A stretch of DNA of 64,000 nucleotides from Bacteroidales bacterium (lineage in GTDB: Bacteria; Bacteroidota; Bacteroidia; Bacteroidales; Bacteroidaceae), in the NCBI GenBank assembly GCA_012517855.1, contig JAAYUD010000018.1, forward strand, positions 1-64,000, written 5' to 3'. A program made the translations under genes and the position numbers. Position 1 is the first letter of the stretch. Each line of letters opens with the position of its first letter. The notes beneath the pieces are model-generated. The model was given only the letters and a program-made list of their open reading frames with translations. It made no database searches and had not been told where the DNA came from. Positions 1,725-63,875 of this stretch are shown here, in pieces.

Positions 1725-1755
1725 TGTTATTACTATACTACAATGTTTTTAGGCC

Positions 1756-1881
1756 TTCAAAATGACATATGCCCCTAAAAATATTTTATTCCATACGTTT
1801 TCAGAAAAACTTAAGGACGTCGCCGAAAAAACTAACATACGACACTTTTGGCTCACAATGATGAGTCGAAAGTGTCGTATG
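1756..1881 (+). repeat. Intergenic repeat family A, copy 1, ending in a 13-bp hairpin
   Basis: This stretch downstream of nrdG shares three blocks with 38.45-38.58 kb and with the minus strand at 63.74-63.87 kb: a left box ACATATGCCCCTAAAAAT, a 34-bp core (1787-1820, CCATACGTTTTC...AAGGACGT) and a right box AAAAAACTAACATACGACA. The right box runs into a hairpin with perfect 13-bp arms (CATACGACACTTT at 1836-1848 and AAAGTGTCGTATG at 1869-1881) whose loop holds a further GGCTCA/TGAGTC near-pair. The left end of the core is degraded (TATTCC instead of ACGTCC). There is no coding potential. Function is unknown; the position fits a transcript 3' end or a REP-like element. Confidence 0.8.
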
Positions 1882-30647: not shown

Positions 30648-30713
30648 TACAATTAATACAGTCGGTCGATAAGAAATAAAGAGCTATAAACCACTTTTGT
30701 CATCACGCAAAAA

Positions 30714-30815
30714 AACTAACGTATGTCGCAACCATAACTAACGGAAGTTACTGCGGTAACTAACGTTAGTTATCATAACAACTAACGTTAGTTTTGTCTG
30801 CGACATACGTTAGTT
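30714..30815. repeat. Intergenic repeat family B, copy 1 (nested AACTAACGTTAGTT palindromes)
   Basis: Outer perfect 17-bp inverted arms AACTAACGTATGTCGCA (30714-30730) and TGCGACATACGTTAGTT (30799-30815) enclose two identical 14-bp palindromes AACTAACGTTAGTT (30758-30771 and 30780-30793), 22 bp apart. A small AGTTAC-TGCG-GTAACT hairpin lies just before the first. A second copy with the same internal offsets lies at 63613-63738. Both are 3' of a transcription unit. No coding potential. Confidence 0.85.
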
Positions 30816-30847
30816 ACGGCGACAACATACGGTTGATTTTTCTCTGA

Positions 30848-38440: not shown

Positions 38441-38582
38441 GTGGTGTACATGATCATTTCAACAAATTAGTATTGTCTTTATCTTTCTAAAACTACATAT
38501 GCCCCTAAAAATGATAACGTCCTTAAGTTTTTTTGAAAACATATGGACGTCACCAAAAAAACTAACATACGACAATTTTACG
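38441..38582 (+). repeat. Intergenic repeat family A, copy 2 (core inverted)
   Basis: This copy downstream of the S4 gene shares the outer block (TTTCAACAAATTAGTATTGTC), the left box ACATATGCCCCTAAAAAT and the right box AAAAAACTAACATACGACA with the other copies. Its 34-bp core (38517-38550, ACGTCCTTAAG...ATATGGACGT) runs in the opposite direction relative to these boxes. The core is bounded by ACGTCC/GGACGT inverted repeats. No coding potential. Confidence 0.8.
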
Positions 38583-51448: not shown

Positions 51449-51490
51449 AGTGTTTATTTTCCGCAAAAGTACAAAATTAATAGCTTCAAA

Positions 51491-51614
51491 ATGCCATAAG
51501 AACCTAAAAATGTTTTCGTCCTTATGTTTTCAAATTTACATAAGGACGAAAATAAATTTTCTTCCATATGAAACTTGCGACTCACGCCCGTGAGTCGCAA
51601 GCCACGTCCTTATG
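51491..51614. repeat. Two strong hairpins related to repeat family A
   Basis: In the divergent trmD/ligA gap. The first has perfect 15-bp arms TTTTCGTCCTTATGT (51513-51527) and ACATAAGGACGAAAA (51538-51552). The second is CTTGCGACTCACG-CC-CGTGAGTCGCAAG (51574-51601), perfect 13-bp arms with a 2-nt loop. Just before the first stands CCATAAGAACCTAAAAATG, similar to the left box of family A, and ACGTCCTTATG follows the second. It seems a shuffled member of the same family. The remaining 180 bases to ligA hold only a TAAATTTG box (51763-51770). Confidence 0.75.
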
Positions 51615-51797
51615 TCATCGGGAGAACATACAGAACTTATTGCAACTGCTATATGCCTGGGTCTACCTTACGTTTATAATCGCCAGTTATAGATATGAAA
51701 TAACAAGATCGATAATCACGAAAGATATTCTAAAAGAACATGGAAATAGTGCAATAATTTAGTAAATTTGTAGGCAGATATCAATACTCCTAGAAAC

Positions 51798-63462: not shown

Positions 63463-63612
63463 TTAAAAGAATAAAATGATAGATTAACTTAACAGTTATC
63501 TATTTATTTTTGTTGGTTGTTTTAAGTTGTAGAAGGGGGGTACCGCGAGGCAGTCCTCTTCTTCCATTTTTATTTAGTGCTATACATTATTTACCCGAGT
63601 TGGGAATAACAA

Positions 63613-63738
63613 AAACAGACGTATGTCGCAGCAATAACTAACAGAAGTTACTGCGGTAACTAACGTTAGTTGTCAGAATAACTAACGTTAGTTTCTTCTA
63701 CAACATCCGTTAGTTACGGCTGCGACATACGTTTGTTT
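63613..63738. repeat. Intergenic repeat family B, copy 2
   Basis: Outer arms AAACAGACGTATGTCGCAGC (63613-63632) and GCTGCGACATACGTTTGTTT (63719-63738) pair at 19 of 20 positions. They enclose two AACTAACGTTAGTT palindromes at 63658-63671 and 63680-63693, again 22 bp apart and at the same offset from the left arm as in the 30.7-kb copy. The AGTTACTGCGGTAACT segment is also conserved. Confidence 0.85.
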
Positions 63739-63739
63739 T

Positions 63740-63875
63740 TTTGCGAAGTTGTCGTATGTTCGTTTTTCCGGTAACGTCCTTAAGTTTTTCAGAAAACGTA
63801 TGGACGTCAACAAATTTAGGTCCTTATGTGGTTTTAGTAAGATAAGGGCGACACTGATTTGTTGAAATAATCGTG
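63740..63875 (-). repeat. Intergenic repeat family A, copy 3 (minus orientation)
   Basis: Read on the minus strand it has the outer block TTTCAACAAATCAGTGTCG, a left box ACATAAGGACCTAAATTTG, the 34-bp core (63774-63807) bounded by ACGTCC and GGACGT, and a right box AAAAACGAACATACGACAAC. It abuts family B copy 2. The core lies in the orientation of copy 1, opposite to copy 2. Confidence 0.8.

Follow-up and report, generated by a model that had tools for sequence, protein, structure and literature searches.

A 34-base core was found in reversed orientation between conserved flanking boxes of an interspersed repeat in a 64,000-nucleotide stretch of a Bacteroidales bacterium genome (GenBank assembly GCA_012517855.1, contig JAAYUD010000018.1, positions 1 to 64,000, forward strand), hereafter the window. 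Core inversions of this kind, together with the arm variants seen in other copies of the repeat, are probably the products of replication template switching at a quasipalindrome. The hairpin formed by the core looks like a record of replication errors, not a genetic switch.

Three copies of the element lie in the window: copy 1 at 1749–1854 (plus strand; normal core at 1786–1821), copy 2 at 38479–38582 (plus strand; inverted core) and copy 3 at 63742–63846 (minus strand; normal core at 63773–63808), with profile matches of 92.4, 84.8 and 100.3 bits, respectively. Between a left outer box, CATATGCCCCTAAAAA, and a right outer box, ACTAACATACGACA, that are common to the copies, the core reads TTCCATACGTTTTCAGAAAAACTTAAGGACGT in copy 1, ACGTCCATACGTTTTCTGAAAAACTTAAGGACGT in copy 3 (minus strand) and ACGTCCTTAAGTTTTTTTGAAAACATATGGACGT in copy 2 (38517–38550). 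Within copy 2, the left outer box AAACTACATATGCCCCTAAA (38490–38509, plus strand; exact genome pattern match and conserved columns) and the right outer box AAAAACTAACATACGACA (38557–38574, plus strand; exact genome pattern match) enclose a left inverted-repeat arm AACGTCC (38516–38522, plus strand; GACGTCC in most copies, from sequence and alignment), a 22-bp inverted segment TTAAGTTTTTTTGAAAACATAT (38523–38544, minus strand) and a right inverted-repeat arm GGACGTC (38545–38551, plus strand, from sequence). The interval of the inverted segment was given by the template-switch alignment of two copies, C24_4701 and C70_8685 (core positions 7–28). The initial annotation had described the core of copy 2 as reversed relative to the outer boxes when compared with copies 1 and 3, and this is confirmed from the sequence, with copy 3 read on the minus strand. 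It had also described the core as bounded by ACGTCC/GGACGT; the inversion does lie between these repeats, but copy 1 has lost the left ACGTCC, where TTATTCC stands instead. Because the core is a quasi-palindrome, with three diagnostic differences between its 17-nt arms, inversion changes only about 9–11 of 36 bases. Its hairpin fold (−9.2 kcal/mol, z −4.8) was not equalled by any of 200 shuffles, and the core thereby has the hairpin-forming imperfect inverted repeat of a quasipalindrome template-switch locus.

All copies come from a single strain: they were collected by searching the assembly to which the window belongs (3.64 Mb in 114 contigs), an approach that may miss diverged copies. The element, CTTAAGGACGT and the two outer boxes served as queries, and the fetched stretches were then scanned with a profile. 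The scan yielded 92 hits scoring 45 bits or more, leaving ∼88 well-formed copies after one contig-end duplicate (the first 141 bases are common to C18 and C70) and three degenerate hits were set aside; contigs C101 and C97 hold an almost identical copy at their ends, which may be one locus. Scoring of core orientation over the genome, as the initial annotation had advised, found 4 of the ∼88 copies to be inverted (beta/alpha; C78_38479, C78_75758, C70_8685 and C70_123028). The usual core is present in about 70 copies (63 hits with normal alpha/beta arms, plus several with changes at a single diagnostic site). Two further cores are palindromic or nearly so, namely beta/beta in C86_10774 and alpha/alpha in C79_16871, the sole clear alpha/alpha case. 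In eight copies (gamma) the right outer box, inversely copied, takes the place of the left arm, and in four the left arm is another sequence, GTATGTACGT.

The exactness of the inversion is best seen in the closest pair, C24_4701 (normal) and C70_8685 (inverted), which are 91% identical outside the core and whose right flanks are visibly alike for tens of bases further. What separates their cores is an exact inversion of 22 bp (positions 7–28), between GACGTCC and GGACGTC, with no mismatches in the fragment. When each inverted copy was compared with a chosen normal copy, one inverse copy removed 7–10 mismatches in all four cases, while random-substitution controls (150 per pair) removed at most 4–6 and none reached the observed value. 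The inverted cores are thus in excess of chance. A tree based on 68 outer columns requires four changes for the four inverted copies, and its well-supported (starred) branches force at least three; it is supported that the core was turned around in at least three flanking backgrounds. Because of this recurrence, two subfamilies of fixed orientation, the pattern that the initial annotation had named as contrary to its proposal, are not what is seen.

Two of the inverted copies, C78_38479 and C78_75758, lie 37 kb apart and carry the same unusual core, GATAACGTCC...CATATGGACGTC, despite different outer boxes, which suggests a single inversion and subsequent spread of the core. Chiefly because these two copies share it, gene conversion stays a real, if unlikely, rival. 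Under gene conversion another copy would align in reverse with the quasi-palindromic core and overwrite it, leaving an inverted core, and the same recombination would shuffle the outer modules. The left and right outer flanks do consist of a few repeat modules that occur in several combinations around the core, so recombination between copies, or nested insertion, has happened too. However, ∼36 bp of homology with mismatches is short for RecA-type exchange, and inversely copied tracts in two copies, C79_16871 and C5_16540, match the opposite arm of the very same element, which favours copying within the element.

In C79_16871 the alpha arm was copied rightwards past the core and into the flank, its own AATAA included; this right-flank AATAA equals the left flank of the same copy and is absent from every other right flank. 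The right flank of C5_16540, AACAG, matches its own left flank, and in C86_10774 the beta arm was copied leftwards, into the left side. In the gamma copies, inverse copying from the right outer box accounts for 19–23 bases of the left arm; in the four copies tested, this reading removed 8–11 mismatches against a maximum of 5–7 in 200 random-substitution controls each. Inverse copying beyond random substitution was therefore found in the four inverted and four gamma copies.

Among these variants the rearranged intervals (7–28, 4–28, 7–19, 19–39 and 0–19 in core coordinates) do not have the constant crossover points of a site-specific inverton, and the beta/alpha class alone fits one pair of points. 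Site-specific flipping was one of the mechanisms put forward in the initial annotation. That a recombinase inverts the segment at ACGTCC/GGACGT, possibly as phase variation, is now hardly credible, as the short repeats lie close together and the endpoints vary. Sites of 6–8 bp that are ∼22 bp apart are hard to bring together on a short duplex. Only 4 of the ∼88 copies are inverted, and products other than inversion are commoner, including arm-to-arm and outer-box copies that no invertase would make. What speaks for a recombinase is the exactness of the inversion between inverted repeats and the abundance of invertible DNA in Bacteroidales reported in the literature.

The suggestion of cruciform-driven exchange fared better: as the hairpin-driven option it came closest of the three mechanisms proposed, but the data are best read as replication template switching. 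In the polymerase mechanism that we infer, replication would meet the core as an imperfect hairpin amid the ∼100-bp interspersed repeat, and the polymerase would occasionally quit its template in one arm, resume copying where the opposite strand carries the matching inverted repeat, and then return. If the switch fell in GACGTCC and the return in GGACGTC, so that both arms were traversed, the 22-bp spacer would be left inverted, as in copy 2; a shorter excursion would write one arm over the other, or the outer box into the inner arm. The elements would then differ because each bears its own history of template-switch events. Template switching between short inverted repeats has two described outcomes, arm homogenisation and spacer inversion (Abraham and Hazkani-Covo 2021, PMC8604942), and template-switch mutation at quasipalindromes has been studied in E. 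coli (Klaric et al. 2020, PMC7202029). Loop inversions, in bacteria among others, and asymmetric copying in which the source lies beyond the opposite arm have also been reported (PMC8794818). Since the published outcomes include inversion, homogenisation and asymmetric copying, one process covers the variants seen.

Several observations weigh against template switching. The perfect arms measure just 6–8 bp around a 22-bp spacer, though the spacer is largely self-complementary, and similar products can arise by gene conversion between copies. The gains of the inverted copies (7–10) overlap the top normal-versus-normal controls (8, 7 and 7), which stem from poorly matching fragments (3–11 mismatches) lying outside the core. 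The outer-sequence tree is poorly resolved, with 3 of 83 inner branches starred. For C79_16871 and C86_10774 the whole-segment control was matched by chance, and the two separate from chance only in a test restricted to the core plus five bases on each side. Lastly, homogenisation is not general: taken over all copies, the arms of one element show no greater likeness outside the core than the arms of different elements.

In a further alternative, the hairpin would be turned or swapped by a REP/RAYT-like or attC-like process, either single-strand transposition or integration that depends on folding. The conserved mismatch asymmetry of the hairpin and the mosaic modules on both sides would fit such a route, but the Y1 transposase (PF01797) was not found in the genome by a search that, as a control, recovered this family from 5 of 14 known genomes, with integrases left unsearched, and we regard this alternative as highly improbable. 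An association with RAYTs was rejected, as the genome has no Y1 tyrosine transposase. It is likewise very doubtful that the core is a live recombination hub which flips in growing cells and swaps its outer modules via a folded single strand, without a conventional invertase. Among the right modules is a palindromic repeat of ∼130 bp, found on its own as well; this second family, a near-palindrome with dozens of hits genome-wide, is fused to copy 3 in the window (63611–63741; genome DNA search, hits on both strands) and is present again at 30711–30841. To the right of copy 1 (1835–1882), the right box extends into a 21-bp hairpin stem (CATACGACACTTTTGGCTCA...), and similar stems stand beside several other copies. 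Another hairpin repeat, CATAAGGACGAAACTAAAAGTTT...AAACTTTYAGTTTCGTCCTTATG, lies at L006 and L017, in the right flanks of the elements. The flanks of several copies share the motif GTCATACGGAGGTGGCAAAGGTTG, and C2_3934 has the left box at both ends. Just upstream of ligA (51483–51620), related CATAAGGACG motifs and a perfect GACTCACGCCCGTGAGTC hairpin look like a degenerate relative of the element.

The element is ∼100 bp long, conserved from roughly −60 to +38 relative to the right edge of the core, and is most simply a non-coding interspersed repeat resembling a miniature inverted-repeat transposable element (MITE). A crude open reading frame (ORF) call leaves 67 of the 92 hits free of any ORF of at least 70 codons; the same crude call gives a mild tilt toward gene 3′ ends (72 versus 49 flanks), which was not used. 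One protein in the window is ∼48% identical to proteins of Prevotella-like genomes, and the genus is represented by a single genome. A search of 300 genomes of the same taxonomic family returned only one weak 32-bp match to the repeat (E 7e-4), an exact 20-mer had no match in GTDB contigs, and an Rfam search gave nothing beyond a sub-threshold microRNA match. Three viral matches were rejected as relatives because they contain only a 17-mer, without the boxes. The repeat family appears to be undescribed, while the underlying process is already known.

With ∼88 similar quasipalindromes, this one genome provides many natural replicates of apparent template switching, in which inversion, arm copying and asymmetric copying are found side by side in one repeat family. 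Given strains or reads, the family could allow measurement, in a wild bacterium, of how often the process occurs, where its endpoints fall and which strand it favours. It also cautions that small inverted hairpins are not necessarily regulatory switches.

Among known systems, quasipalindrome template-switch mutation (the Ripley model, in E. coli and yeast; PMC7202029, PMC8604942) shares with the element an imperfect inverted repeat and both spacer inversion and arm homogenisation with unchanged flanks. It differs in that here many natural copies of one interspersed repeat are present in one genome, the arms are short, the inverted part is near-palindromic and some tracts derive from the outer box. 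The gut Bacteroidales invertons also invert between inverted repeats; in comparison, the element is far smaller and without recombinase evidence, with one orientation per locus known from one assembly. Like the repetitive extragenic palindromes (REP), bacterial interspersed mosaic elements (BIME) and REPINs, the family is high-copy, largely extragenic, hairpin-forming and mosaic, but its sequence is different, no Y1 (RAYT-type) transposase was found in the genome, and core orientation varies within the element. A MITE of Porphyromonas gingivalis (PMC4596501) is similarly a short non-coding interspersed element with imperfect inverted ends, which here (CAAAAC-CACATATG / CATACGACAATTTTG) are visible, unscored, in the consensus. 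Unlike MITEs, the element is known here without a demonstrated parent transposase or target-site duplication.
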